NCBI GenBank assembly: GCA_003697085.1 | Contig: RFFU01000032.1 | Span: 34,220 to 98,219 of the forward strand | Length of the DNA: 64,000 nt | Direction: 5' to 3' | Source of the DNA: Candidatus Hydrogenedentota bacterium | Lineage (GTDB): Bacteria > UBA8481 > J006 | Shown here: positions 19,844 to 36,837 of the stretch, one piece after another | Layout of the letters: every line of letters starts with the position of its first letter | Position numbering within the stretch: the first letter of the stretch is position 1 | The notes under the pieces: model-generated | What the model was told of the DNA's origin: nothing | The model's database searches: none | What the model saw: only the letters and a program-made list of their open reading frames with translations | Made by a program: the position numbers and the translations under genes

Positions 19844-20785
19844 CTATTTGTAGCTTGGGCCGAATTGGTAGGTCAACGCAACGCGGTGATTGTTCCCCAG
19901 ATTGCCAAACGGAATGTACGCGTAATCGACGGCAAGATCGCCTATGTTGAGTCCGAGGCCGGCGGTCCAGCCGTTGTCGCTGTCCACGCGCCCGTCAAAG
20001 CCGCCCCGCAAAGCCAGCATATCGACCACCCGGAACTCCACGCCGCCGTTGAAGGTCACGTTCTGCTTTCGCACCTTCTCCACCTCCGCCGCCACCGTAA
20101 CCCTGTTGAAATCGAACGCAATGCCTCCTCGAACCAATGCGGGCAGATCCTCCGATACCCGTTCAAATTTCAGAGTCGTCCCCAGATTCTGCCCGGAAAT
20201 ACCGAGCCGAAAAGGAAGATTCTCCGGCCGGTAGGAGAGCCCCACATCGGCGGCGAAAGCGGTCGCCGTCACGTTGTCGATCTCAGAGTTGAGTATCTTC
20301 GCCGTCACGCCCAGCGAAAGCGTGCTGTTTACCTGTCTTCCATAGGAGGCACCGAAAACAAGATCCCGCCCGGTAAACGTCACCGACGGATTATTATTGT
20401 TGATGATGTCTTTTAACGTAACTCTCTGCGTCTTTCCGTAATCGATATAATTGAACGAAATCCCCCACGCGGAGACACTGTTGATCGGGTGGGCGAATCC
20501 CAGATCCCCCTGGGCGATATCCAACACCAATCTCTGATACGTCGCGCCCGCTTCCCCGCGAGCCGTAAATCCCAGACCAGCCGGGTTGTAATGCAACGAA
20601 GCGATCCCCGTTGCATCAGCCGTGTAGGCGTCTCCCATCGCAGGACCGTGGGCTCCCGAACCAAGGCGCAGTACCAATCCCGCCGAGCTCCCCGCATCTC
20701 CAGCGGCAAGCACTCCACCCGCAAAGACTCCCAGCACTACACCTGAAACCAGAATTCTCTTTAACACCTTCTTTTCTCTCATCAT
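19844..20785 (-). CDS. PorV/PorQ-like outer-membrane beta-barrel protein
   Basis: A 313-residue exported protein. A signal peptide (about residues 1-28, ending VLAAG) is followed by GSGAHGPAMGDAYTADATGIASLHYNPAGLGF, which matches the start of PorV/PorQ and UPF0164 barrels. The rest is alternating beta segments ending in an aromatic-rich VALTYQFGPSYK. In T9SS bacteria PorV carries cargo proteins at the outer membrane. Its start overlaps the stop of the giant gene upstream (ATGA), so the two are coupled and the barrel may anchor or export that protein. No T9SS core gene is in view. Confidence 0.85.
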   Translation of the reverse strand: MMREKKVLKRILVSGVVLGVFAGGVLAAGDAGSSAGLVLRLGSGAHGPAMGDAYTADATGIASLHYNPAGLGFTARGEAGATYQRLVLDIAQGDLGFAHPINSVSAWGISFNYIDYGKTQRVTLKDIINNNNPSVTFTGRDLVFGASYGRQVNSTLSLGVTAKILNSEIDNVTATAFAADVGLSYRPENLPFRLGISGQNLGTTLKFERVSEDLPALVRGGIAFDFNRVTVAAEVEKVRKQNVTFNGGVEFRVVDMLALRGGFDGRVDSDNGWTAGLGLNIGDLAVDYAYIPFGNLGNNHRVALTYQFGPSYK

Positions 20786-23700
20786 CGGATTATCGCCACC
20801 TTCCCGGTCACTCTCTGCTGCGTGGAGAGATCAGTGACAACGTAGAGGTAGTAGCCGCTCGCAACCGGCTGGTTATCTTCATTTCGCGCATCCCAGACAA
20901 CGTGTCCCGCCGTCGGACTCGCCCCCACACTCGTTGAAGTGAACTCGATCACCTTTTCACCCAGGATCGAGTAGATCTCGATCTTCCACTTCGGCGGCAG
21001 GTTCTTGAAGTAGATGCCCGCCGGGAGTCCTCTCTTCGTGAATTCGGGATCATGCGGCCGATACGGATTCGGACCGACGAGCAAGCGATTCAGGCCCGCA
21101 TTCGTCACTCCGGTATCGTTGCCCAGGACGAAGGGTGTGAAGTGGCGCGCACGCCCGATAATGAGATGGTTGGCCTTATCGACCGTTGTCGGGACGAGTT
21201 CAATCTGCCCTTGCGCGTTCAGAGTAAAGATGCTGATGTTCTCGACATTCAAGCCGGACGAATCGTCGATATCGTCATTGTTCGCGTCGAAGTAATTGAA
21301 TGTGACGAGCGTGGAATCCGACTGCGAGAAGATAAAGTTATCTCCTCCTCGCTCTAGATGCGCGTCGATCCAGTAAGTCGAAGCGATATTTTGGACACCC
21401 GCAGTCTTGAGCGCCGTAATCAACGTATCGGGCATACCGTTGTTCATCGCGGCGATCCGGACGCGATCGGTGTCGAAGGCCAAGGCGTTCTCGCCGATCC
21501 TTACGGACGCACGCACCTCACCCTTCGGCGAAACAATCGGAACTGTCTTAGCTCCGGACCGCGTCGAGATTTCAATAATCACCACCGTCACATCCGTCGC
21601 TTTCGTGGTGTCAGCCCCCACCGCCACGAGCGCCGTTTCAAGAGCCTGCTGCTGCGTATCCGCTCCCGGATCAGCACCAAACAGACTCGTCGCCCCCAAT
21701 CCATCCGAATCCGCCAGCGTGACGTATTGCGCGGCTCCAAAATTGTCTGTCAGTAGCGTCGAAGTACTCTGTGCATACGTGTCCGTTCCGCTGGTAAAGA
21801 TCGCCACCGCGCGGACCTCGTAGGAATCCGCCGTCAATGAATCTCCTGCAACCGTCGCCACAAAGTACACGTCTCCATTCCCGTCAACCACCGTCGTCGT
21901 CGTCAACGGAACGGTTGTACTGTCCCAAACACCGCCCGCAACTAGCGGCCGAATCTCAAAGCGAACACCGGTAATATTGGCCAGATTCCCACTCGTAACC
22001 TTCGCCGCCAAATCGATCTGCGGAGTCCTCATCGTGATCAGCCCGTTCGGCGGCGAGGTGATCTGGACGCTGGCATAATCCGGCGGCAACACGACCGTGG
22101 CACCGCGGAAGACCGCCGAAGCCACAAGCGACGCCGCACTCTGATTGCCCACACTGTCCTGAGCCACCACCGAGAATCGATACTCCACCCCGTCCTGAAG
22201 CGTCGTCAGGTCCACACTGTAAAACTTCTGGCCGCTCAGGTGCGGCACCGCCACCACGGTTGTTCCCGGGAAGGTCCCCAGTCCGGAATCCGTCAGCAGA
22301 TTGTACTGGCCACCAGCCATTTGAGTATCACCACTGGGCGAAGCATCCCACGTAATCGTCATCTTTCCGGCCGTTACCGTAATCGTCAGCGTTGTCGGCG
22401 CGATCGGGAGGGTGGTGTCCACGCTTCCGATCCCATAGCTATCATACAGCAGCGTGCTCGCCGGGCCGGCCTTCGACCACGTCGAGAAACTCCGGCTGTC
22501 CGGCAGGCTCGCTTGCACGACCGAGTCAATCCAAGCCTGCGCTGTGTCGGCGAAACGCACGACGACGAGGAACGGCGCCGAATCCACTGAGAGATTCACG
22601 CTGTCGGCTTTCCCGGCCGCCGCATAGGCCGTCGTATCCCTCGAGAAGACCCATTCCGTATCCAAGGCTCCCGATTTCACAAAGTACCCGACCACCGTAT
22701 CCGGCATCCAGGCCGTGTCGTACTTCTCGTTCACCAACTGCTCGCGCACAAGCAGCATCGTGTCGATCGCCTTGTTCAACGTCGCACCCGACGGCGTCGC
22801 CACATTCACCACGAGGTATTCGAGCGAATCACCGGGAATGGAACTCTGCGCCCTGAAAGCCATGATCTCGTGCAAGAAGCCCAACTGAATATTACCCGGA
22901 TACGCCGGATCCCTCGGCTCGATCGTAAAGATCAACCCCGGCTTATCGAAGGTGAGCGTCCGGTTGCTTACGAAGACACCGTTTGCCTCGTTCGCGTAGA
23001 AGGTCTGGACCGAGTCCGGAACGAAACGCAGACTCAACGTCGTCGGCACTGCTATCGTTTCCGCCACTCGGATGTTCACACTCAGGAAGACCGAGTCTCC
23101 CGTCGCCAACGACGAATCCAGATTCGCGAACCATCCCGTCGCCGAGTCGCGGGTCAACGCCACCGATTCTCCGCCGGCAAACCCCAACCACGCGGCCTCG
23201 ATCGAATCGCCCGTCGATCCAACCGCGCTCCCGAAGAAGTCCACGCCGAACCGGATCATCGTATCCCGCAATGTCGCAATGCTTGTCTGGCCCATCACAT
23301 AGCCGCGCCACGCGACCACGGGGTTGTTGGTGTCGATTCCCGTGCCGTTGAGCACCGTCGGCGATAGAGACGGATGAACCGTCGAATCACCCAACGCTGT
23401 ATCGTTAATAATCGCGACCGTATCCGTGTACCAAACCTCCACAGTCCGATTCGAGTCCGTATCCGTGTAGCCTCCGCGCTTCGTCAGGGCAGTCAGGATC
23501 GAATCCGCACGGATGATTCCCTTCACCGTGTCACCGGCCAAAACCTCGCTGTCCGGCAGGAAGCCGAAGACCCTGAATCTCTGCCCGTTGACGTTCAGCG
23601 GAAGGATGTTCAATGCCGTATCCGGCAGCCTCCAGAAAGACGCCGCATCGCGCACCATGTCCGTTTCGCCCAGGCCGTCGAAGATCACCGTCATTCGCTC

Positions 23701-26700
23701 GAAGGAATCCGCGTTGATCCCATCCGTCCCGTCGATATCCACGCCGAACATTGCCAAGGTGTCGTACGGCATCGTCGAAGTCCACGTAATGATTCCTGAA
23801 TCCAGAAGGACGGAGTCACTCTTGGTGAAATTGTTCGTCCTTTGATCACGGAATGGCGAAACCCGGATGTTCCCGAGATCCTCCATCGTCACCATTATCT
23901 GCGGCTTATCGAACGTAACCGTGCGGGTCCCTTCCACTTTCACGCCCGAATCCCCTTCGAAGGCGAAGACGACGGAGTCGCTCGGGATGAACGCCTCCAA
24001 GGTCTCGCCCAGCACGACCGTATCGTACACCTGAGCCCAGACGCTGACTGCACTGTCACCGGCGCCCGGTTTCGCCGTCGTCGAATCGAGATTCACGACC
24101 CAGAAGGTTTCACTCGAGCGTGCCAACATCACGGAATCTCCGCTGGCAAACCGAATGAAGACACTTACAACGCTGTCGCGATCAGGCCGACCCGCCGCGC
24201 CGCTCAAAAGGGAGCCCTCGAAGCCGATTCCAAACCGCAAGAGCGTATCCGAAAGCACCCCAGCCTGTTGCTGCGGCCGCAACGTTCCCGACCAAATCAT
24301 AAACGGCTGCTGCAAGAATTGCGGATCGGGATGCAACGTACTGTCTCCAAGCGCAACGTTACCAATCACAACCGTGTCTTGATACCAAATCGTTACTTCT
24401 CGATTCGAAGTCTCGTTGCCGACGCTGCCCACGGCAAACTTTGTCTGTACGGAGTCCTTTCCGAACTCGGCGAAGATCGTGTCTCCGAGAATCACGGGCT
24501 GATTGAGTGTATTCTTCGCCAAGGTGTCGTAGAGCGCAACATAGACCCGGAAGACCTGCCCCGAATCGATCGTTGTATCCGCCGCCAACCGATAAACGGT
24601 CGTTCCTGGCGCCGCTTGCACCAACGTGCTCGTGAAACCAGGTGTCACCGCCCCCGGATCGAACACAACCTTCACCCACCGCACCAGGGTATCAGTCAAT
24701 TCGGGACTCGTGCGTAAGACGACACCGAAGTTCGTCAGCGAATCGCTGGGTTCCTGCGCCGACGCGAACTGTCCCTTGAGCACCAACACCGAATCCTGTT
24801 TTTCATCGAAGGGCGAAATCGAGATGTCGCCGAGGTCGGTCATCGCCACAACGAGTTGGTTTTTCAGGAAGGTTATTGTTCGCAACTGGAAGAGATTTCC
24901 CGCCCCTGAGGTGGAATCCGCCAGATAGAAGGTCGAGACGGAATCCCACTGAATAAATCCACTGAGGCGGGAATCCTGCCCTATCGTGTCCGCAACGGTT
25001 ACCCAAACCTGATACGTTTCGACGTTGTTGTTTCCCGCACCGAAGACCGTATCGGACCCTGCCGGCATCGTCCAATGCGTTTGAACGATCGAGAAGGTCG
25101 GGTCGATATTTCGGTTCGACCGAACCAGGTAAATCGTCGTCTCCTGGTTCGCCCCCAATTTCAGAGCGACCGTCTCGACATAATCGGCTTCCCTTCCGCC
25201 CGTAAACCGACTATGAAGAACGACACCGAACGCCGTCAAGCTGTCATGAGCGAGGGGATTTATTTGGAACTGCTGGCCGCGTATCGTCCCTGAGGCCATC
25301 AGGAACGGATTCTCTCCAAGACGGGAATCCGGATTTACCACGGTATCCGGGAGAAAATCAACCGTAAAGGTCACAGTATCGGGATAATAGAAGGTGACGA
25401 TCCGGCTCGAGTGTGTATCCGCCGAAGGCGCAGCACCACTTGTCAGAAGCGTCGTCACAGAATCCGCCGGGATTTTCACGAAGATCGTGTCTGGAATGAC
25501 TGTTCTCTTCGAGGCGACCTCGAGCCAAACCTGGAACGGCTGGGTATCGAGTATCACGGTGTCCGCGGCAAGCGACCAGACATAGGATTCCGCCTTTGAC
25601 TGAACAAGATCGATTGTATCCGAGGTGATAAAGCCGAATTGAGCGGAGCGTCCGAGAAGAACGAGTTGGACGGCGACCACCGAATCCGCCGGTAGTCCCG
25701 TTGCCGCATTGTTCGCCGTATCGATCCTGACACCGAATTGAGTCAGCGTATCATTGAGCGTCGGCGACGGTAGGCCGATGATATAGCCGGAATCGACGAG
25801 CACGGGGTTCGAGTCGAGAGCACGCCACGGTGGAACCGTCGTGTCCCCCAGCGTTGTCATAAGGACACGCACTCCGTTCCTCAGAAAGATTACTGTATCG
25901 TTCTTCGCACCTCCGTTCGTCCAAGTGTCGCTCGCCGGTCCGGAATCGGAGAACGCGCTTCCCAGCGAATCCGCTCCGAGGATCATCATCAACGTCTCTC
26001 CGTTCCCCCACGCATCCACATTCGTCGTGTCCCCAATCGTGATCGCGACATAGATCGTATCCAGTGGAACTTTAACCATCAGACTTAGACCGCTCCCGGC
26101 CCAGATGGAATCCACTCCGGCGCCGCTCAAAGCCGCCGATTCCGCGAAATTGGACGTAAAGACGGCAACGGAATCGATGTAGGCCGCCTGCGTATCTGTC
26201 CGCGTTCGGAAGCGCACCGTGATCCTTTGAATCCTGTCATAGTTCAATTGTTGCGCGAAATTCCTCGTACCCGTTGTATCGAACGTGACCCGCGCCGCAA
26301 AGACGTACCAGGAGTCGCTTCCGTGAATCCTCGAATCGGGGTGGAGCACTGTCTCGCCAAGCTCGAACGGGATTACCACCAATACCGGGCGCGTCAGCGT
26401 AATCGTATCGGCCGCACCCGCGTTCCCGGCGCCAGTATCGCTGAAGACGGTCGTAATGGAGTCGTCAAAGACCCGCGCCCAGATCGTGTCTCCCGTGGGA
26501 ATGCTCGTATTCGTATCCGCAAAAGCAATCTTAATCCAGATTTCGGAATCGGTCCGGGTAAAGCCGGCGGCCGCGGGGGAAATCCACCAAGTGTCGCCCC
26601 CCGTCGCCGCGACCTTGGCCAGCGCGACCATCGTTCCAGACGTGCTCACCTGGAGAAACGCCGTCTCGATCTGATCGGCCGCGTTTCCGGAAAACTGCAC

Positions 26701-29700
26701 CGCAAAGAGGTTCACAGTGTCGTATGTCACGCTAACGTCCCGGATTCCAGTCGTATCCAGATCTAACGCCCCGTGGAACACCAAGATCAGTGTGTCCCCG
26801 TTTCGAACGCGACTATCCGGATGGAAGAAGGAATCCGGAAGATTGTAGGCTTTTATCACGACTTGCGGCCGCGTAAACGTAAGAGTGTCGACTCCGAATT
26901 CATCGGCTGCCGGACCGGAATCACTGAACTCCGTTACAACCGAATCGAACTGAATCGATGCCCAGATCGTTTCCCCGGTCCGTACGAGGAAGTTTGAATC
27001 CGCCAGGGACGCTTTCACTGTGATTACCGAATCGGCCTGCGGGAAGCTCGCCCCGATTCCAAAGGCAACCCAGGTGTCCGTGTTTCCGAGTTGCGACAAC
27101 GCTACCATCGTGCCTGAAGAGGACACTTGCACGAAGGCACTCTCGATTTGGTCCGCCGCCGCCCCGTCAAAACGGACCCACAAAATTTGCAGCGTGTCGC
27201 TCGGAATTGCGACTTTTCTCAACCCCGAATTATCGAAGACCAACGCGCCTCTGAACGCTACAAAGAGCGTCTCCCCTCGAACGCGAGTATCCGGGTGCAA
27301 GAGCGTATCCGCATTGATCGTATAGGCCGTGACACCGACGCGCGGGCGTTCGAAGATAATCACCGAATCCGCCGCCTCCACGTTACCAACTGACGTCGTA
27401 TCAGAAAAGACCGTTCCGACGGATTCTGATGCCACCTGGGCCGACAAGGTTTCCCCCGTCAAAATGGCGCTCCCGAAGTTGGTATCGGGCACAACCGCGT
27501 AAACCCAGAATTCGGAATCCGCTGCGTTGATCGTCACGCCCAGCGCCGCCGCATAGGCCGAGTCCGCCGCTCCCCTTGTCATGACCGTTGTATTTCCGGA
27601 ATTTCCAACGGCAAGGTAGATTGTGTCAACTTGATCTTTCGCATTCCCTTTTAACGTCACACCAAAGACGTTGAGCGTATCCCAGAGTACTCCGGACAAA
27701 CCGCGTCGGCCTGTTGGGCTCGTATCGAGGGCGACTGCTCCATGAAGCAACAAAAGGACGGAGTCTCCGCGAATACGGAAATCCGGATGGAAGATCGTCT
27801 CTCCCAAATCATAAGTCAACACCTGCAACCTGGGCCGGGCAAAATTAACGGCTCGATGAATTGTGTCTCCATCTCCAAGATTCGCTGGTGCAGCCGTGTC
27901 CGAAAACGCGGAACCGACCGAGTCACTATAAAGGATGACCGCCAATGTATCCATTGTCACGATGCCTGAACCGGTATTCGTGTCCGCCAGGGCCACGAGC
28001 AACTGGAACACAGAGTCTTGGGGTACGTTCGTAATGGGTATCCCCAGATTCGTTCCCGAATAGGAATCGCTCGCTGCCGAGACCTTAAACAGCCTCACCA
28101 TAGTTCCGTTCGCCAATTTCACAAAAACGGAATCCACCTCGTCCTTCGCATTACCTTTGAGCGAAATCGTAATCGTTTGAATCGTATCAGAACGAACATC
28201 CACCATCCTCCGTGGGTCGGACGTCGTATCCAGCCCGATCGCAATCCTTCCAACGACAATGAGCGTATCCCCCGCACGGAATCGAGAATCCGGATGGACG
28301 AGGGTGTCCGTTTGCAAATCATAGAACCCGACCTTCAACAGCGGCCTCGTAAAGGTCACCGTATCCGGAGGCGTCGTCGTGAAGTCTGGACCAACGTTGG
28401 TGAAGATGGTCGTGATAGAATCCGCAAGAATAAAAGCCGTCACGGTCGTCAGCGACGCCTGCGTCTCGGCTTGCAGACTCGCACTGACTTCGAAGAAGGA
28501 ATCCTTCCCGGCGGATCCGAAGAACAAATTCGTGCCATAAACGCCCCAGATCGAGTCCCCTGTCAAGCCACCTCCGGTATCCAAGCGTGTGAGATAGGTA
28601 TAACCGCCCTTCCCTACCCGCAAGGCGACGGAATCAATGTTGCTAGCGACTGAACCTTGCAGAACGACGCCGAAATTGATGAGCGTGTCGTTGCCGAGCG
28701 TACCGCTGTCGTAACGGAAATAGCCCCTCAGCACAATGAAGGTGTCGGAACCGCTTATCCTCGAATCCGGGTGAATCAGCGTGTCCTGCAACGGATAGGT
28801 CTCGACCGCGATTGTGGGCCGCAGCAGAGTGATAATCCTTCCTGTAACACGAAAATCGGTTGAATCGGCGGCATAAAAGGTCGACGTCGTGTCGCCGACC
28901 ATGGCAACCATCAGCGTTTCCCCTTTGCCGGGAACTGTATCGTAGACCTCGACGTAGACCTCGAGATGCATCGAGTCTCCCGCCGCGATCGTTGTCTCAA
29001 TTCCCGTCACGCTCCAAACCGAATCGCCGCTTGACGCGGCGAGTATAAATGTCTCCGCCCGCGCGGTCCCGCTGTCTCGGATCACCCACACTCTCCGTAT
29101 CATTGAATCCGGACCGGGCAGACCGGCGATGGAATCAAAACCTACGGACAGCTGCAGTAAAGAATCATTCAACAACGGGTTCGTTGTCTGACCGAAAAGG
29201 TAGCCCTCCCACGCCAGAACGGGATTGCTCCCAGCGCGCGAATCGGGATGAATCGTGATATCGGGCAATCCGACGCTTTCAATCTGAACCGTGTCGCTCC
29301 ACCAGAATTGAACTTCTCGGTTCGATTCCACGGCGCCGGCCGCGCCTTGAGAGAATACCGTCGTTACCGAGTCCGTTGGAATTCGGAAAGCCACTGTCTC
29401 ACCAGCCAAAACATCCGTATCGACGAACCGAACATAAACCCGCAGAATCGCTCCCGAATCTACGTTGACCGGCGCCGCCAAATGCCACGTGGAATCCTTC
29501 GGAGCCCCCGAGCGGTAGAGCTGGGTCTCACCATTCGTCGTGCCGAGGTTCAGGAAGACTTGAACGACCGAGTCGTGATTGAACGCGCCCGCCGGACCAC
29601 CTGAGGAATCACGAATGTCTATGCCGAATTTGTTCAGCGTATCTTGTGCCGCACCAGCGTACAACCTCCCCTCGAAGACCAAGATGGAATCATAGATTAA

Positions 29701-30843
29701 CTGCCAAGGCGAGACACTGATATTCCCCAGGTTCGTCGGTGTCAATATTATGGTATCCTTGTCGATGAGAACCGTCTGAATCGCCGACGATTCGTTCCCG
29801 TTGGAGAATCGTAGATAGGTTTGAATCGAATCGAAGGGAATCCAGGCCTGAAGCGTTTCGCCCAAGGGGGTCGTATCGTAAATTCTGGCATAAACAATGA
29901 AGGTGTCCGTTACTCCGGCGCCGAGCAGCGGCGAATCGAGGCTGCTAGCGGCCCAGAGGTAGGTATCGGCGGTTTGAATCAGCGGGACGTTCCGACTGTC
30001 CGCGCCAAGAACCATTCGGGCGGAAATGATCTGATCCGATGCCGGTCCGTCGAAATGGACTGCGAAGAGCGTAAGCGTGTCGTTGTCTCCGTTGAGTGTG
30101 CGAGTTTCTCCTTGGACCGTGCCTTGCCAAACCACGAATTCATTCTCTCGCGTACGCGAATCCGGGTTCCGTGTTGTCAAAGGCGGCGGTAGCGGAGAGA
30201 TAACCGGCAGCGGGGTCGTATCCACCCGGATATTGAAAACGGGAAACGTATCGAAGGTCACCGTAGGATACGGAAACCACGGAAAATCATTCCCGCCGCG
30301 GACTTGAACCCCTCCGCTGGGAATGGATATAACTAACGTTTGTCCGTTAAGCGCTTTTTGATTCTTCAGTTCGACGTTAATAAAAAACGTTTCGGCTTTA
30401 ATTCCTAATTCCAATGTGGTCGACATCGTAAAATTCGCGGTATCCGACGTTGAACCGATATCAGGAACAAAGGCTTGGGTAACCAAGGTGTCTCCTGCTG
30501 AAAAGCGGCCGTCGTCGTCGGCATCTCCGTAAACCGCTATTCGCTGGACCGAGTCTCCCGGCTTATTGCCAATGGATTTGACTGTCACCCTTACGAAATT
30601 CACAGCAAGCGTATCGGCCGGAGCATCGGGATTGCTGATGACGAATGCTCCCAGCGTGATTCCAGCGAGCGTGCTGTCTCCTCCTGGGACTAAGGCCGTG
30701 TCCGCACCTGTCGATGTGATATCATTATTGACGAAGTCACTTACCGAAACGCCAGCATTCGCTCCAGCAGCGCGGGCTTCCTGGAACCAACCAGCAACCA
30801 CGACAAGTGAAAAAATTGCGGCCAGAAACAACGATAACTTCAC
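20782..30843 (-). CDS. Giant exported repeat protein with FlgD-like C-terminal domain
   Basis: About 3,353 residues. The GTG at 30843 follows GAGGGGGAAG and gives a clean signal peptide (KLSLFLAAIFSLVVVAGWFQEARA). An ATG at 30993 with AGGGA upstream is an alternative that would add 50 N-terminal residues. The body has about 16 beta-rich repeats of about 160 residues, Asp/Ser/Thr-rich, each opening with HPDSR- or SPW/SPF-type signatures and containing FGV..xG and VWVxFxDT-like strands. A fibronectin-III-like domain (TTLTITVTAGKMTITWDAS...) and an IxSPPNG domain follow. The end (VGPNPYRP ... IYSILGEKV ... WDARNEDNQPVASGYYLYVV) is the FlgD-Ig-like domain found at the C-termini of many secreted proteins. 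Likely a surface filament or adhesin. Confidence 0.9.
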   Translation of the reverse strand: MKLSLFLAAIFSLVVVAGWFQEARAAGANAGVSVSDFVNNDITSTGADTALVPGGDSTLAGITLGAFVISNPDAPADTLAVNFVRVTVKSIGNKPGDSVQRIAVYGDADDDGRFSAGDTLVTQAFVPDIGSTSDTANFTMSTTLELGIKAETFFINVELKNQKALNGQTLVISIPSGGVQVRGGNDFPWFPYPTVTFDTFPVFNIRVDTTPLPVISPLPPPLTTRNPDSRTRENEFVVWQGTVQGETRTLNGDNDTLTLFAVHFDGPASDQIISARMVLGADSRNVPLIQTADTYLWAASSLDSPLLGAGVTDTFIVYARIYDTTPLGETLQAWIPFDSIQTYLRFSNGNESSAIQTVLIDKDTIILTPTNLGNISVSPWQLIYDSILVFEGRLYAGAAQDTLNKFGIDIRDSSGGPAGAFNHDSVVQVFLNLGTTNGETQLYRSGAPKDSTWHLAAPVNVDSGAILRVYVRFVDTDVLAGETVAFRIPTDSVTTVFSQGAAGAVESNREVQFWWSDTVQIESVGLPDITIHPDSRAGSNPVLAWEGYLFGQTTNPLLNDSLLQLSVGFDSIAGLPGPDSMIRRVWVIRDSGTARAETFILAASSGDSVWSVTGIETTIAAGDSMHLEVYVEVYDTVPGKGETLMVAMVGDTTSTFYAADSTDFRVTGRIITLLRPTIAVETYPLQDTLIHPDSRISGSDTFIVLRGYFRYDSGTLGNDTLINFGVVLQGSVASNIDSVALRVGKGGYTYLTRLDTGGGLTGDSIWGVYGTNLFFGSAGKDSFFEVSASLQAETQASLTTVTAFILADSITTIFTNVGPDFTTTPPDTVTFTRPLLKVGFYDLQTDTLVHPDSRFRAGDTLIVVGRIAIGLDTTSDPRRMVDVRSDTIQTITISLKGNAKDEVDSVFVKLANGTMVRLFKVSAASDSYSGTNLGIPITNVPQDSVFQLLVALADTNTGSGIVTMDTLAVILYSDSVGSAFSDTAAPANLGDGDTIHRAVNFARPRLQVLTYDLGETIFHPDFRIRGDSVLLLLHGAVALDTSPTGRRGLSGVLWDTLNVFGVTLKGNAKDQVDTIYLAVGNSGNTTVMTRGAADSAYAAALGVTINAADSEFWVYAVVPDTNFGSAILTGETLSAQVASESVGTVFSDTTSVGNVEAADSVIIFERPRVGVTAYTINADTLLHPDTRVRGETLFVAFRGALVFDNSGLRKVAIPSDTLQILWVRFDGAAADQIESAFVQVSSSGTMVALSQLGNTDTWVAFGIGASFPQADSVITVKASLADSNFLVRTGETIWASIQFDSVVTEFSDSGPAADEFGVDTLTFTRPQVVIKAYNLPDSFFHPDSRVRNGDTLILVFHGALDLDTTGIRDVSVTYDTVNLFAVQFSGNAADQIETAFLQVSTSGTMVALAKVAATGGDTWWISPAAAGFTRTDSEIWIKIAFADTNTSIPTGDTIWARVFDDSITTVFSDTGAGNAGAADTITLTRPVLVVIPFELGETVLHPDSRIHGSDSWYVFAARVTFDTTGTRNFAQQLNYDRIQRITVRFRTRTDTQAAYIDSVAVFTSNFAESAALSGAGVDSIWAGSGLSLMVKVPLDTIYVAITIGDTTNVDAWGNGETLMMILGADSLGSAFSDSGPASDTWTNGGAKNDTVIFLRNGVRVLMTTLGDTTVPPWRALDSNPVLVDSGYIIGLPSPTLNDTLTQFGVRIDTANNAATGLPADSVVAVQLVLLGRSAQFGFITSDTIDLVQSKAESYVWSLAADTVILDTQPFQVWLEVASKRTVIPDTIFVKIPADSVTTLLTSGAAPSADTHSSRIVTFYYPDTVTFTVDFLPDTVVNPDSRLGENPFLMASGTIRGQQFQINPLAHDSLTAFGVVLHSRFTGGREADYVETVALKLGANQETTIYLVRSNRNIDPTFSIVQTHWTMPAGSDTVFGAGNNNVETYQVWVTVADTIGQDSRLSGFIQWDSVSTFYLADSTSGAGNLFQLRTITFLKNQLVVAMTDLGDISISPFDEKQDSVLVLKGQFASAQEPSDSLTNFGVVLRTSPELTDTLVRWVKVVFDPGAVTPGFTSTLVQAAPGTTVYRLAADTTIDSGQVFRVYVALYDTLAKNTLNQPVILGDTIFAEFGKDSVQTKFAVGSVGNETSNREVTIWYQDTVVIGNVALGDSTLHPDPQFLQQPFMIWSGTLRPQQQAGVLSDTLLRFGIGFEGSLLSGAAGRPDRDSVVSVFIRFASGDSVMLARSSETFWVVNLDSTTAKPGAGDSAVSVWAQVYDTVVLGETLEAFIPSDSVVFAFEGDSGVKVEGTRTVTFDKPQIMVTMEDLGNIRVSPFRDQRTNNFTKSDSVLLDSGIITWTSTMPYDTLAMFGVDIDGTDGINADSFERMTVIFDGLGETDMVRDAASFWRLPDTALNILPLNVNGQRFRVFGFLPDSEVLAGDTVKGIIRADSILTALTKRGGYTDTDSNRTVEVWYTDTVAIINDTALGDSTVHPSLSPTVLNGTGIDTNNPVVAWRGYVMGQTSIATLRDTMIRFGVDFFGSAVGSTGDSIEAAWLGFAGGESVALTRDSATGWFANLDSSLATGDSVFLSVNIRVAETIAVPTTLSLRFVPDSVQTFYANEANGVFVSNRTLTFDKPGLIFTIEPRDPAYPGNIQLGFLHEIMAFRAQSSIPGDSLEYLVVNVATPSGATLNKAIDTMLLVREQLVNEKYDTAWMPDTVVGYFVKSGALDTEWVFSRDTTAYAAAGKADSVNLSVDSAPFLVVVRFADTAQAWIDSVVQASLPDSRSFSTWSKAGPASTLLYDSYGIGSVDTTLPIAPTTLTITVTAGKMTITWDASPSGDTQMAGGQYNLLTDSGLGTFPGTTVVAVPHLSGQKFYSVDLTTLQDGVEYRFSVVAQDSVGNQSAASLVASAVFRGATVVLPPDYASVQITSPPNGLITMRTPQIDLAAKVTSGNLANITGVRFEIRPLVAGGVWDSTTVPLTTTTVVDGNGDVYFVATVAGDSLTADSYEVRAVAIFTSGTDTYAQSTSTLLTDNFGAAQYVTLADSDGLGATSLFGADPGADTQQQALETALVAVGADTTKATDVTVVIIEISTRSGAKTVPIVSPKGEVRASVRIGENALAFDTDRVRIAAMNNGMPDTLITALKTAGVQNIASTYWIDAHLERGGDNFIFSQSDSTLVTFNYFDANNDDIDDSSGLNVENISIFTLNAQGQIELVPTTVDKANHLIIGRARHFTPFVLGNDTGVTNAGLNRLLVGPNPYRPHDPEFTKRGLPAGIYFKNLPPKWKIEIYSILGEKVIEFTSTSVGASPTAGHVVWDARNEDNQPVASGYYLYVVTDLSTQQRVTGKVAIIR
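22400..30300 (-). repeat. About 16 tandem ~485-bp coding repeats in the giant gene
   Basis: Repeat openings (codons for HPDSR or SPW/SPF followed by a short link) recur near 30165, 29705, 29240, 28765, 28285, 27785, 27295, 26815, 26330, 25835, 25325, 24810, 24330, 23860, 23380 and 22885, a mean spacing of about 485 bp. The copies are diverged at DNA level, so the array is old. Two subtypes are visible: HPDSR-type (most) and SPW/SPF-type (units 2, 10, 12, 14). Confidence 0.85.
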
Positions 30844-31048
30844 CTTCCCCCTCGCCTCGAGAGGGTATCGCCCTATCTCCCATTTCCGATTTTTTGCGCT
30901 TGAAGAACTCTTTTTTTGCGATTCTTCTTCTTGGCCGCTACACACTTCTCTTTTTTTCACTCTCACGCGGTTCTCTCCCCAATCATAAAACATATTTTTG
31001 TCCCTGGAATCCGCTTGGACGGATTCCCCCGAAATGCCATCGCTTTTC

Positions 31049-31077
31049 AGTAAATGAAATTTTTTGCCCGCTGTCAA
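31049..31077 (-). promoter_or_regulatory. Sigma70-like promoter for the giant protein/PorV operon
   Basis: TTGACA at 31077-31072, a 17-bp spacer, and TTTACT at 31054-31049 on the minus strand. The -35 is a perfect match and the -10 matches 4 of 6. Start of transcription would be near 31,042, leaving an untranslated leader of about 50 or 200 nt depending on which start codon is used. Confidence 0.6.
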
Positions 31078-32838: not shown

Positions 32839-33279
32839 ATGAGACTCCGGATCCATCTCCAGACCATCCTTTTGCTCTTGCGAACGTTTTCGTTGCTTCG
32901 TCGCAATCCCGTCGAGGCCTTCCAGGCCGTTTTGTGTCCCGTCACAAATGTTCCTTCTGAACAACGGCTTCCTCTTTCGGAGATTGTTGAAGCCGTCGAT
33001 ACCATCCTTTTGTTCCGCATCGCCGGAAAGTTGCTTTTTCGCACCCGCTGTCTGAAACGTTCCCTCATTCTTTATTGGATCCTTCGCAATGAGGGTTACT
33101 CTGCCGAGGTCCAACTCGGGTTCTTACGCGACACGTCTGTGGAAGATTCCCTCCGCGGCCACGCCTGGATCACGGTCGATGGAAATCCGATTCCCGATCC
33201 TTGGCCTGAAGTGCAACAACTTCCCTTTGTTCCCTTTTACAAGATCAACGAATCGATCCTTCCCTTGACGGATGTTTGA
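32839..33279 (+). CDS. Lasso-peptide B2-type leader peptidase (transglutaminase-like)
   Basis: A 146-residue protein with the McjB C-terminal/Transglut_core3 pattern: C71 in RTRCLKRSLILYWILRNEGYSAEVQLGF, H108 in GHAWITVDG and D120 a short way on, giving the Cys-His-Asp triad. In lasso peptide pathways this cysteine protease removes the leader from the precursor. The stop overlaps the start of the HPr-kinase-like gene by 8 bp. There is no attached RRE domain; a separate PqqD-like RRE is encoded at 36.5 kb. No lasso cyclase (asparagine synthetase homologue) is in the window. Confidence 0.85.
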   Translation: MRLRIHLQTILLLLRTFSLLRRNPVEAFQAVLCPVTNVPSEQRLPLSEIVEAVDTILLFRIAGKLLFRTRCLKRSLILYWILRNEGYSAEVQLGFLRDTSVEDSLRGHAWITVDGNPIPDPWPEVQQLPFVPFYKINESILPLTDV

Positions 33280-34237
33280 AACTCTCTTTTCCATCGCCGG
33301 AAAAACCGTTCGGATCGCCTCGGACCGCAAGGATTCCCCTTACCTCCAATTCATCGAGGAATTGGGAGCCCATCGAAATCTTGACCGAGAGGGCTCGACC
33401 CCCGATGCGGAAATCCTTCTTCATCCCCGAGATTATTCGGAACGGTCCCCCTTGCGCCTTCCCAAGGACGCACGGCTCATACGCAAGGGAAATCGGAGGG
33501 TTTATCAGCGTGGCAAGGAGTTCTTCATCGATTTCCACCAGAACGCGTTTTTTCGACTCAAGGACTTTCACGCGGAGGGGGTTTGCTATTTCGACGAAAC
33601 ACTTGATCCCGTCTTCTGGTCCGAGATCTGCATCAATCATGTTCTTTTCCTTCTCCTGCGTCGGTTGAATCGTTTCCCGTTGCATGCCGGCGGAGTGCAA
33701 CCGGCGGGCGGGCCGGCGGTCTTTTTTGTCGGAAAAAACGGAGCCGGAAAGACGACGGCAACGGTGTATCTGGCGAACCAAGGATGTTCTTATTTTGGAG
33801 ATGATATAGTATTATTTGATTCGCAGGGGTATATTTATCCCTATCTCAAACGGCCGGCGCTCACCGAATGGACGCTGGACGTTCTTCACCTTCGGGAACG
33901 GGTCGTGGCAAGACGCCGGACGGGGAAATTTCTCCTTCCTCCCTTCCCCGCCGCTTTGCCCACGAAGAACTTCCGGATCTTCCTGCTTTTCGAACGCGGT
34001 CACGACGCGGCGGGCGAAAGGCCCGGATGTTCGATCGGTTCTTCCGCGCCGCTTGAACCCGCCGTTATCGAAGACATGATTCGCTCTCAGACGGAAGCCT
34101 GCCACACCGATAACCTCCTCGGCGCCCCCTGCCCTCCCTTGGATTTCCTGGTGGATCGCGCTCGTCCCCTCCCCGAATTCCGACTCGAGGACTTCTCGAA
34201 AATCCTCGATCAATTTCTTCCGGCCGCTGTTCAATAA
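33272..34237 (+). CDS. HPr-kinase-like P-loop protein of RiPP loci
   Basis: A 321-residue protein with a P-loop FFVGKNGAGKTT (residues about 152-162) and a Walker-B-like YFGDDIV (about 174-180) preceded by FPLHAGGV, the arrangement of HprK-related kinases found next to lasso and PqqD-type gene clusters. Some lasso-associated members phosphorylate the C-terminal serine of the precursor. The N-terminal 130 residues are unassigned. It is coupled to the B2-type peptidase (8-bp overlap) and ends 33 bp from the convergent methyltransferase gene. The substrate here is unknown; the candidate precursor ends in proline, not serine. Confidence 0.82.
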   Translation: MFETLFSIAGKTVRIASDRKDSPYLQFIEELGAHRNLDREGSTPDAEILLHPRDYSERSPLRLPKDARLIRKGNRRVYQRGKEFFIDFHQNAFFRLKDFHAEGVCYFDETLDPVFWSEICINHVLFLLLRRLNRFPLHAGGVQPAGGPAVFFVGKNGAGKTTATVYLANQGCSYFGDDIVLFDSQGYIYPYLKRPALTEWTLDVLHLRERVVARRRTGKFLLPPFPAALPTKNFRIFLLFERGHDAAGERPGCSIGSSAPLEPAVIEDMIRSQTEACHTDNLLGAPCPPLDFLVDRARPLPEFRLEDFSKILDQFLPAAVQ

Positions 34238-34270
34238 CCCCCGAACTACAATTCGTCGTTCTCACCGGAA

Positions 34271-35212
34271 TCAAGGGGGGGATGGTTCAACGCCGAAGAT
34301 TCGTCGGCGCCGCTCCGCGGTTAAGGGAGCGCTGAAGACGGCGCTGCGGGTTTCGCCGGCAACGCTCCAAGAGACATTTCCAGATCCAAGACGTTCATCG
34401 TAACAGTAATAAAAGGGGATCGTCTTACCTGCTTCGACCGATAAGGGACCGCAAGGGAGGAGGACGCGATACCAACTCTGATTCGGCCAAGTCTTCTCGG
34501 GAGCAAGATCGAGGATCACTCCGGGAACGAGTTCCACTTCCCACCAGAGAAGCACGGCATTCGCCGTGCCGTCCCTCTCCACCAGAAATTCCCCTCCGTT
34601 TTCACGCCGCCCCGGCTCCGCGGAATACAGATCAACTTCGACGATAAAAAACGGCCGACTGAGGACGTCGGCATCCTGTCGGGAATCCCAAAAGTAACTG
34701 TTGGTCATAAACTCCTTCAGGATGGAGAAATCGATGCCGTAACGGCGATCCTCCCAGAAGGAAAGCGCCTTCTCGACAACGGAGGAAAACGCTAGCGCGG
34801 CGTAAGCCTTAAGTCGAAATGGGATCAACTTTCCTCCAGGTTTCAACATTTCCCGCGCCCGACTCATAATCCGAACGATCTCCTCGTCCAACATCATATT
34901 CCCGATAGTTTCACTTACGATGACGTCGTATGCTTCGAATTCCGTCCGGTCGATTTTCAGGAAATCTCCCTTCAAAAAACGAACATCCCATCCATTGGAC
35001 TCCGCAACAACCCGTGCGAAATCGAGGATTTCTCCGATTTCGACGGCGGTGACCCGCGCTCCAAGTCGCGCCGCATAAAACGCCAGGATCCCACTTCCCG
35101 TTCCGATATCGAGAACCTGCATTCCAGGAGAGATCGTCTTCTCCAACGCTTTCAGGAAAGCCCGTGTCCGAACTTCGTCGGCCAACAGGGTCGCGTGATA
35201 GTTCAGCGGCAT
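34271..35212 (-). CDS. PRMT-like protein methyltransferase in RiPP operon
   Basis: A 313-residue class I SAM methyltransferase with VLDIGTGSGIL (residues 33-43). Residues 100-110 are S-E-T-I-G-N-M-M-L-D-E, which has the exact spacing of the double-glutamate loop (SE-x8-E) that binds the substrate guanidinium in protein arginine methyltransferases. Further on, TWPNQSWYRVLLP ... VEAGKTI aligns by eye with the THW loop and beta-barrel of PRMTs. It starts 25 bp after the 75-residue candidate precursor gene, so the precursor, which is rich in arginine, is the obvious candidate substrate. The target and chemistry are inference. Confidence 0.8.
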   Translation of the reverse strand: MPLNYHATLLADEVRTRAFLKALEKTISPGMQVLDIGTGSGILAFYAARLGARVTAVEIGEILDFARVVAESNGWDVRFLKGDFLKIDRTEFEAYDVIVSETIGNMMLDEEIVRIMSRAREMLKPGGKLIPFRLKAYAALAFSSVVEKALSFWEDRRYGIDFSILKEFMTNSYFWDSRQDADVLSRPFFIVEVDLYSAEPGRRENGGEFLVERDGTANAVLLWWEVELVPGVILDLAPEKTWPNQSWYRVLLPCGPLSVEAGKTIPFYYCYDERLGSGNVSWSVAGETRSAVFSAPLTAERRRRIFGVEPSPP

Positions 35213-35237
35213 TCGAGGTCTTTTTTCGGCCTTTTTC

Positions 35238-35465
35238 TCACGGTATCAACCATTCCGGCATCGCCGGCATTCCGAAACCTCTTCCCGCGTTGCAATTATC
35301 CGGATTTTTACAGAGTTTTGAATTCACGGGCCCCGTGGCCCCCTGATATTCCTTGATATGATCGCGCGCAAGACGGTAACGCCGAACAAGAGGTTTGTTG
35401 TAGGAGCGCCTCGAGTGTTTTCCTTCCGTATTTTTTTCCGGCTCGGACGGACTCTCTCTCCTCAT
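35238..35465 (-). CDS. Candidate RiPP precursor peptide, 75 residues
   Basis: A small ORF whose ATG overlaps the radical SAM stop (ATGA), with AGAGG about 7 bases upstream; it ends 25 bp before the methyltransferase. The N-terminal half is charged and arginine-rich, then Y22-N-K-P25-L26 matches the YxxP(x)L leader signature that lasso-type RRE proteins bind. The C-terminal part (residues about 44-75) is different in character: Gly/Pro/Asn-rich with C52 and C58 in CKNPDNC, then GRGFGMP, and it ends EWLIP. This looks like leader plus core. I know no homologue, and the leader/core border is a guess. Confidence 0.62.
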   Translation of the reverse strand: MRRESPSEPEKNTEGKHSRRSYNKPLVRRYRLARDHIKEYQGATGPVNSKLCKNPDNCNAGRGFGMPAMPEWLIP

Positions 35466-36550
35466 CCAACCGCCTCTTTCCGCTCCCCGTCCTTCTTCCC
35501 CAAGGGAACCAGTTCCGTTGGAATCTCATCATACCCCGCCCAAGCGGCCGTGATGCGGCAGTGTTCCGGCGCCGGTTCGTCAAACTTCCCCGTCACCAGT
35601 TGAAAATGGCCCATACAGCGATACTTGCACTTTTTGACGAGTTCACAGGAGCGGCAGGTTTCCAGAGGCTTTCCGGCCGACGCCCGAATTTCGTTCAGCC
35701 GAAAAGAGTATCTCCACGCCTGCCGAAACGGCTTGTACCGAATGTTATCGACCGGTTCGGCGACCTGGGAACACGGATAGAGGTCTCCCCGGGGACCGAC
35801 CGCGAAGCGTGCCCAGCCCATATTACAAGTCGCCGGAGCGGGTTCGTCCTCACATCGAGAGAGTTCGGGACGCCCCGTCCATTCAGGATACCGCTTTTCA
35901 AATGTCCGAATCTGATCCGCGGTCAGCGTCTCGCTCAGAAATCCGTCGTTCCCCGGAACGAAACGCGGAATCATATTGTAGGATGGAGCGAAGACCGCTC
36001 CGATCTCGCGGCACCGGCGGGCCAGTTCCTCGATCGACGGCCACGTCGGCCGCATCACGGACATTTTAATGACGGTCTTGAGCCCTACGGAGCGGCTGTA
36101 TTCGACCATCGGCCAGGCCCTTCGAAACGCTCCCGGTCGGGCAACGAAACGGTCGTGTATCTCGTCGATACCGTGAATCGAGAAGGAGAGCTCCCGGATG
36201 CGGCAGTCCTTGAGGAAACGGATGTCGTCCTTCTTTATCACCGTTCCATTTTGAAAGAGATCGATCTGGAAGCCCAATCGCGCGGCGGCTCCGATAATCT
36301 CGCGCCATCCCGGATGCAACAGCGGTTCCCCTCCACTGAAGGTCAAATCCATCGTTCCCTCGTCGCGGAATTCATGCAGCAATCGAATCCATTCCTTTGT
36401 TCCCATCCCTCCGCTCCAGGGAAGGCCGATCCGATAGCAGTGAAAGCATTTCAGATTGCAACGCTCGGTAAGATGCAGATGACCTTGAAAGGGAACCGCT
36501 TTTCGTTCCAGGGATCGGAAGATCACTTCCTGCGGAAGGTCAACGATCAC
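35462..36550 (-). CDS. SPASM-domain radical SAM enzyme (PqqE/AlbA-like)
   Basis: A 362-residue radical SAM protein with the CxxxCxxC cluster C31/C35/C38 (TERCNLKCFHC), FSGGEPLLHP for SAM binding, and a C-terminal SPASM region with seven cysteines: C242, C260, C299, C302, C308, C312 and C331. SPASM enzymes carry auxiliary Fe-S clusters and mostly modify ribosomal peptides (PqqE cross-link, AlbA thioethers). It is coupled by 4-bp overlaps to the PqqD-like gene before it and the candidate precursor after it. Peptide modification is therefore very likely; the reaction cannot be told from sequence. Confidence 0.93.
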   Translation of the reverse strand: MIVDLPQEVIFRSLERKAVPFQGHLHLTERCNLKCFHCYRIGLPWSGGMGTKEWIRLLHEFRDEGTMDLTFSGGEPLLHPGWREIIGAAARLGFQIDLFQNGTVIKKDDIRFLKDCRIRELSFSIHGIDEIHDRFVARPGAFRRAWPMVEYSRSVGLKTVIKMSVMRPTWPSIEELARRCREIGAVFAPSYNMIPRFVPGNDGFLSETLTADQIRTFEKRYPEWTGRPELSRCEDEPAPATCNMGWARFAVGPRGDLYPCSQVAEPVDNIRYKPFRQAWRYSFRLNEIRASAGKPLETCRSCELVKKCKYRCMGHFQLVTGKFDEPAPEHCRITAAWAGYDEIPTELVPLGKKDGERKEAVG

Positions 36551-36837
36551 GCCTTCACCTCGATGACCAATTCCTCCTTGAGTAGGTCCTGAAGAAGTTC
36601 CTCGAGATCGTTGCGCGCCGTATCGACATCCACATCAAATTCCCCGAGAACCGTTTCGAGAAGTTCTTCTCTTGTTCGAGGCTCGGAGCCCATCGCACGG
36701 AAGATCACTGTCCCGACCGGATTGAGCGAATAATAGGTTGTCGTTTTTATCTTGAGGATCACCGCTTCATCCTCGATCAAACGCCAGGCCAATTCCGGAT
36801 TCACCTGATATCTCGGTTCCGCCGCCGAGGTTTTCAT
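36547..36837 (-). CDS. PqqD-like RiPP recognition element protein
   Basis: A 96-residue PqqD-family protein: AWRLIEDEAVILKIKTTTYYSLNPVGTVIFRAM followed by a helical segment with TREELLETVLGEFDVD and a terminal amphipathic helix. The fold binds leader peptides and presents precursors to the modifying enzyme. The gene overlaps the radical SAM gene by 4 bp (ATGA). The ATG at 36837 gives a typical PqqD length and starts 6 bp after the sulfatase stop; an ATG at 36879 would overlap the sulfatase by 37 bp. Confidence 0.88.
   Translation of the reverse strand: MKTSAAEPRYQVNPELAWRLIEDEAVILKIKTTTYYSLNPVGTVIFRAMGSEPRTREELLETVLGEFDVDVDTARNDLEELLQDLLKEELVIEVKA

Follow-up and report, generated by a model that had tools for sequence, protein, structure and literature searches.

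Probable lasso-type leader processing in a RiPP-type locus of Candidatus Hydrogenedentota that encodes a SPASM radical SAM enzyme together with a PRMT-like methyltransferase

The closest described systems to the locus discussed here are the lasso peptide clusters for paeninodin and the bsf cluster of Bradymonas sediminis, in which segregated B1 and B2 proteins are accompanied by an HprK-type kinase. The residue at position -2 of a lasso leader is usually Thr; Ile(-2) has been tested in BsfA, a precursor that BsfB1/B2 cleave and BsfK phosphorylates (PMC10368454). Kinases that tailor lasso peptides carry a motif of His, Lys, Asp and Asp (PMC9266682), and RRE-Finder recorded about 300 lasso-type RiPP recognition elements (RREs; RiPP, ribosomally synthesised and post-translationally modified peptide) beside radical S-adenosylmethionine (SAM) genes (PMC7470986). 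Here we describe a locus of six genes in a 64,000-nucleotide stretch (the window) of contig RFFU01000032.1 from a Candidatus Hydrogenedentota bacterium. Gene content, conservation and residue patterns support its assignment as a RiPP-type locus that joins lasso-type leader processing to a SPASM radical SAM enzyme and a protein arginine methyltransferase (PRMT)-like enzyme. We consider it probable that the lasso-type RRE and B2 peptidase handle the leader of a peptide that is modified by the radical SAM enzyme and tailored by the methyltransferase, with no lasso being made.

The locus, its precursor and their conservation

The six genes form two convergent units between positions 32839 and 36879 of the window. 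On the plus strand, the gene for a B2-type leader peptidase (a transglutaminase-like Cys protease of family PF13471; 32839-33279) is overlapped at its end by that for an HprK-like kinase of the lasso-tailoring type (33272-34237). The minus strand encodes, in order of transcription, a PqqD-like discrete RRE (36547-36837), a radical SAM/SPASM peptide-modifying enzyme (35462-36550), a 75-residue precursor peptide (35238-35465) and the PRMT-like methyltransferase (34271-35212). The first two of these overlap at a GTGA and the radical SAM stop overlaps the peptide start at an ATGA, while 33 bp (34238-34270) separate the converging stop codons of the kinase and methyltransferase genes. All six genes, their catalytic residues and the 33-bp gap lie where the initial annotation had placed them; its start for the PqqD-like protein (36837) is preferred because it fits the homologue better than the other possible start, 36879. 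Family searches confirmed every assignment except those of the peptide, which matched no family, and the kinase, which reached no curated cut-off.

The source genome is a 3.2-Mb assembly of 145 contigs, and it is one of two species genomes of its phylum that were available for comparison. The six-gene set is present in both. In the second, G001 (Ca. Hydrogenedentes bacterium CG07_land_8_20_14_0_80_42_17, contig GenBank PEWQ01000139.1; same order, another family), the PqqD, radical SAM, peptide and methyltransferase genes occur in the same order and on the same strand, with protein identities of 59, 46, 45 and 39%. The initial annotation had staked its reading on such neighbourhoods recurring and on the small open reading frame (ORF) being kept; this gene order is maintained in G001, and a neighbourhood check found the ORF there between the radical SAM and methyltransferase genes. 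The B2 and kinase genes of G001 lie together on another contig (39% and 41% identical, respectively). That contig, C57, stops 116 bp beyond the kinase stop codon, and the operon contig, C150, 163 bp beyond that of the methyltransferase, as would be expected if the assembly had broken in the convergent gap. It is thus likely that the two units adjoin in G001 as well. The genes flanking the set differ between the two genomes, which suggests that the set travels as a unit.

Several lines of evidence rule out a chance origin for the 75-residue ORF. It matches the orthologous G001 locus with a tblastn E of 4e-14; 67 aligned codons of the two peptides score 139, where the best of 2000 shuffles scores 55; and substitutions at codon positions 1, 2 and 3 number 34, 27 and 45. 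On these sequence grounds we take the ORF to be a real precursor. Its leader recognition segment, YNKPLVRRYRLARDHIK (35352-35402), places Tyr at -17, Pro at -14, Val at -12 and Ile at -2, which is the register of lasso leaders, YxxPxL...(T/I/V)(-2). The window and G001 peptides have in common KPxLxRYR, with Y/W at -17, P at -14, V/L at -12 and I/V at -2. The combination expected of a lasso system, a discrete RRE together with a YxxPxL leader whose -2 residue is Thr or Ile/Val, is therefore present, with Tyr replaced by Trp in one precursor. The predicted B2 cut in the window precursor, K38|E39, would leave a core of 37 residues, EYQGATGPVNSKLCKNPDNCNAGRGFGMPAMPEWLIP (35241-35351). Identity between the window and G001 peptides resumes at the predicted +1 (EYQ), and their cores are related. 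The whole precursor set has YQ at +2/+3, an Asn, two Cys, of which the second does not fall in a single alignment column, a stretch rich in Gly and a C-terminal P-x-W.

A profile search recovered one further precursor in each of the two genomes (G001 contig C156 and source genome contig C119; first-pass E 1e-8 and 3e-6). Outside these two genomes, no other convincing precursor was found in a search of 386 genomes and of plasmids and viral contigs; a match in G275 (E 5e-4, with an internal stop) and similar weak matches were discounted. Both orphan precursors have KPxLxRYR-like leaders, Ile at -2, YQ at +2/+3, two Cys and an RG-rich core with an identical C-terminal end, RGRSLFAPPPWG; the G001 copy has one residue fewer between the leader motif and the cut. 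Each has a gene for an M23 peptidase close by, and the two peptidases share 62% identity over 116 residues. No modifying genes of the six-gene set were recognised near them, so the orphans are probably matured in trans, and the enzymes of the six-gene set probably process them too.

Enzymes and proposed pathway

The B2 protein, the only one above cut-off in the source genome, scores 49.2 bits on PF13471 (cut-off 26) and 47.7 on the lasso_biosyn_B2 model NF033537 (cut-off 33). Its residues C71, H108 and D120 are invariant among four aligned B2 proteins, one of which comes from a true lasso locus. For the kinase, the best curated model, TIGR04352, gives 20.6 bits, below its cut-off; H138, K160, D177 and D178, which form the lasso-tailoring kinase motif, are nonetheless invariant across ten homologues, and the reading of this gene as an HPr-kinase-like P-loop protein is upheld. 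The RRE scores 58.6 bits on PF05402 (cut-off 23.4), and the NCBIfam models nearest to it are those of lasso PqqD proteins. The radical SAM enzyme (PF04055 and PF13186) combines a CxxxCxxC motif with a SPASM domain whose spacing, C242...C260...CX2CX5CX3C...C, is the seven-Cys SPASM pattern. It reached no curated maturase cut-off; against the models for PqqE and for the mycofactocin maturase it scored far below threshold.

The methyltransferase carries a PRMT_C domain (42.7 bits, cut-off 27) and aligns with proteins of known PRMT structure at E about 1e-21. Its AlphaFold model (18-sequence alignment; predicted local distance difference test score 89) has PRMT3, CARM1 and PRMT6 as top Foldseek matches, with template-modelling (TM) scores, normalised to the query, of 0.76-0.86. 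The double-E residues E101 and E110 are present, as is the DxVRT motif, and both Glu are kept in the window, G001 and Ca. Desantisbacteria enzymes, all encoded beside radical SAM genes. With sequence, predicted fold and double-E loop all PRMT-like, arginine methylation is the natural guess. Three of the four precursor cores contain RG motifs (GRG in the window, RGRG in both orphans), and methylation of a core Arg by this enzyme is a reasonable prediction from sequence and model.

Related methyltransferases are also encoded in L074, L081, L152 and L176, alongside HprK-like and Asn-synthase/lasso-type genes. The two of these enzymes that were aligned, those of L074 and L081, have Gln instead of Glu as the second residue of the double-E pair. 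The Desantisbacteria locus (L064:5354-10131, CG1_02_38_46) has PqqD, two radical SAM genes, a 54-residue YxKP peptide, a kinase and a PRMT-like methyltransferase in a row, with no B2 nearby. A PqqD-like tail on its methyltransferase was suggested by eye; Pfam does not report it and we do not claim it.

The pathway that we propose builds on the gene content, the tight operon, the conservation in two genomes, the precursor family and the catalytic residues, while each of its chemical steps is inferred. By homology, the PqqD-like RRE would bind the leader segment Y/W-x-K/R-P-x-L/V-x-R-Y-R and present the precursor to the enzymes. The SPASM enzyme would then modify the core by radical chemistry. 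A cross-link, either Cys-derived or C-C, is the most likely outcome given the conserved core that bears CX4-6C and Trp; this is the weakest step of the scheme. The PRMT-like enzyme may methylate the core, most likely at Arg of the RG-rich stretch, and the kinase may phosphorylate a hydroxyl residue of the precursor. Judging from the leader register, B2, aided by the RRE, would cut two residues past the leader-end Ile/Val(-2), freeing a peptide of 35-37 residues that starts with EYQ.

A number of observations weigh against this pathway or parts of it. Precursor C-termini read IP, VP or WG, with no C-terminal Ser of the kind found in substrates of paeninodin-type kinases; BsfK, for its part, phosphorylates Ser3 (PMC10368454). 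The PRMT THW motif reads SW in the window enzyme, which weakens the case for Arg methylation, and the core of the first G001 precursor contains no Arg, so that such methylation cannot be universal. The genes immediately around the six-gene set include none recognisable as encoding a transporter or an immunity protein. No exact overlap was found between the ends of the B2-kinase contig and the operon contig of G001, so that the two could not be joined in this way, and the exact set occurs in only two genomes. In a fuller version of the proposal, the locus would represent a RiPP class whose single lasso-type RRE/B2 leader system supplies the SPASM radical SAM enzyme as well as a bacterial PRMT methylating the Arg of RG repeats, and the same enzymes would mature a distantly encoded second precursor in trans. 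We put this version forward only tentatively, as a possibility that we doubt more than we believe.

Alternative readings and the pairing of B2 with radical SAM genes

The B2 and kinase might instead serve another peptide, leaving the PqqD, radical SAM, peptide and methyltransferase genes as an independent SPASM RiPP system with another protease or no leader removal. The two units converge rather than forming one operon, their adjacency in G001 spans a contig break, and loci with radical SAM, PqqD and kinase genes and YxKP peptides occur with no B2 nearby (L034, L029/L064). We nevertheless regard two separate systems as unlikely. Each genome has one B2 above cut-off (G001 has a further, sub-cut-off match of 25 bits) and no other close copy of the kinase, and the peptide is in the lasso register with Ile/Val(-2), as B2-cleaved precursors are. 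Lasso-register leaders with Thr(-2) were seen in true lasso loci (L074, L148, L150, L151, L158) and in B2-radical SAM loci (L030, L160, L167), whereas peptides beside radical SAM genes with no B2 (L034, L029, L015, L037) lack the register.

At L160:9312-9629, a pair of B2 and SPASM radical SAM genes is followed by two tiny precursors. Their lasso-type leaders are identical (YTKPTLTKHKPLRDITA), and their cores, GDISGARG and ANPSIT, are very short. L015:980-2313 (source genome contig C58) and L037:7970-9221 (G001 contig C53) represent a second radical SAM family, present in both phylum genomes, with Cys-rich precursors that carry YxKPxLTxY and a GYxSPSN-like stretch and with no B2, kinase or PqqD gene adjoining.

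A peptide-derived cofactor or internal signal, following the logic of PQQ or mycofactocin, would be a further alternative to a secreted product. It would fit with the set being kept in both phylum genomes, with no transporter being recognised nearby and with the radical SAM enzyme giving scores, albeit far below cut-off, for PqqE and for the mycofactocin maturase. The cores, however, are about 35 residues long with divergent middles, each genome has two precursors, and no partner redox enzymes were recognised nearby; we find this reading quite improbable.

The precursor could, finally, yield a true lasso, cyclised in trans by an Asn-synthetase-like protein before radical SAM and methyltransferase tailoring. 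The B2, RRE and kinase are lasso proteins, L176 has radical SAM, PqqD, kinase, methyltransferase and Asn-synthase genes in one region, and the source genome encodes nine full-size Asn-synthase proteins. None of these is on the window's contig, where no Asn-synthase match was found, and all nine are AsnB-like: they pass the cut-off of TIGR01536, the AsnB model, and score less well on NF033535, that of the lasso cyclase; control lasso cyclases from L074, L150 and L152, tested alike, gave the opposite order. The predicted cores offer no Asp/Glu acceptor at positions 7-9, which read G7 P8 V9 in the window, G7 V8 T9 in G001 and S7 T8 P9 and G7 T8 R9 in the orphan paralogues. A lasso cyclase elsewhere in the genome acting on this peptide would have counted against the initial annotation; the genome, with a single B2 and nine AsnB-like proteins, gave no such refutation. 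Lasso formation is therefore unlikely on sequence grounds, and cyclisation in trans can be dismissed as highly improbable.

The initial annotation correctly described a RiPP-type locus with a small peptide ORF and no lasso cyclase, and erred in its premise that PqqD/radical SAM loci do not normally use a B2 peptidase. We read 34 B2 neighbourhoods across the 386 genomes, a sample that is not representative and in which some stretches stop at contig ends, making the counts lower bounds. Nine had a radical SAM gene and no Asn-synthase, nine had Asn-synthase and no radical SAM gene, one had both and 15 neither (L148 is counted among these, although it has a lasso-like peptide and matches Asn-synthase weakly over a short stretch). 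Beyond those nine, B2 with radical SAM and no cyclase is also seen in the window, G001 and G133. Eight of the nine radical SAM enzymes form one clade in a tree, and the two clade members that were scanned have no Pfam SPASM domain. The enzymes of the window, G001, L030 and L160 do have SPASM, and the tree groups only the window and G001 pair together, so the pairing of B2 with radical SAM enzymes probably arose more than once. Three loci (L161, L162 and L170) have PqqD, kinase, radical SAM and B2 genes with no recognisable precursor ORF; the radical SAM enzymes of L161 and L170 have no Pfam SPASM domain.

The B2-radical SAM pairing is thus a recurrent, little-described architecture: we found no paper describing it in a literature search that reached few subscription papers. 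What is particular to this locus is the combination of SPASM, B2, kinase and PRMT-like methyltransferase with this precursor family. This suggests that the machinery for lasso leaders forms a general module, one able to work with radical SAM chemistry in place of a lasso cyclase, a combination that genome mining would discard if it required a cyclase. A further possibility raised by the locus is a bacterial enzyme, resembling arginine methyltransferases, whose substrate would be a natural-product precursor that contains RG repeats; our literature search found no paper naming both PRMT and lasso peptides. The unlinked second precursor provides an internal test of maturation in trans.

Two further observations concern other genes. 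In L187:514-3124 (G000 contig C88), a second PqqD-like frame precedes the genes for an ATP-grasp protein and for a pyridoxal phosphate decarboxylase of LysA/FslC-like type. The decarboxylase begins with MSEKGEKKIYEKPMILPQKIGMVNKY, a RiPP-leader-like tail fused to the enzyme. Within the window, positions 20782-31077 (minus strand) encode a repetitive surface-type protein of 3431 residues with a FlgD-like, type IX secretion system-type C-terminal end.

Comparison with known systems

With paeninodin and the bsf cluster, the locus shares the discrete PqqD RRE, the B2 peptidase, the HKDD kinase and a YxxPxL leader cut 17 residues after the Tyr, with Ile/Val(-2) as in BsfA. It differs in having no cyclase, no acceptor Asp/Glu and no C-terminal Ser, and in the SPASM radical SAM enzyme and PRMT-like methyltransferase that stand in the cyclase's place. 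The sactipeptides and ranthipeptides (StsB/StsC) and PqqE/PqqD offer the same grouping of a SPASM radical SAM enzyme, a PqqD RRE and a short Cys-containing precursor, to which this locus adds B2, the HprK-like kinase and the methyltransferase.

SynChlorMet (Scm), compared through NCBIfam models only, likewise has a PqqD protein (ScmD), an HprK-like protein (ScmC) and SPASM radical SAM enzymes (ScmE/F); here there is one radical SAM enzyme instead of two, and B2 and a methyltransferase are present. Our literature search, which reached few subscription papers, turned up no publication on SynChlorMet. Membership of that system was rejected on the scores for ScmE (92.6 bits, cut-off 400), ScmF (63.1, cut-off 400) and ScmD (22.0, cut-off 100), and ScmC was not among the kinase matches; scores for GeoRSP and HPr-rel-A were also far below their cut-offs. 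Finally, the methyltransferase shares with PRMT1/3/4/6 the fold, the double-E residues, the DxVRT motif and the PRMT_C domain. Unlike them, it is bacterial, is encoded in a RiPP operon and has SW in place of THW; its sequence identity to them is 21-26%.

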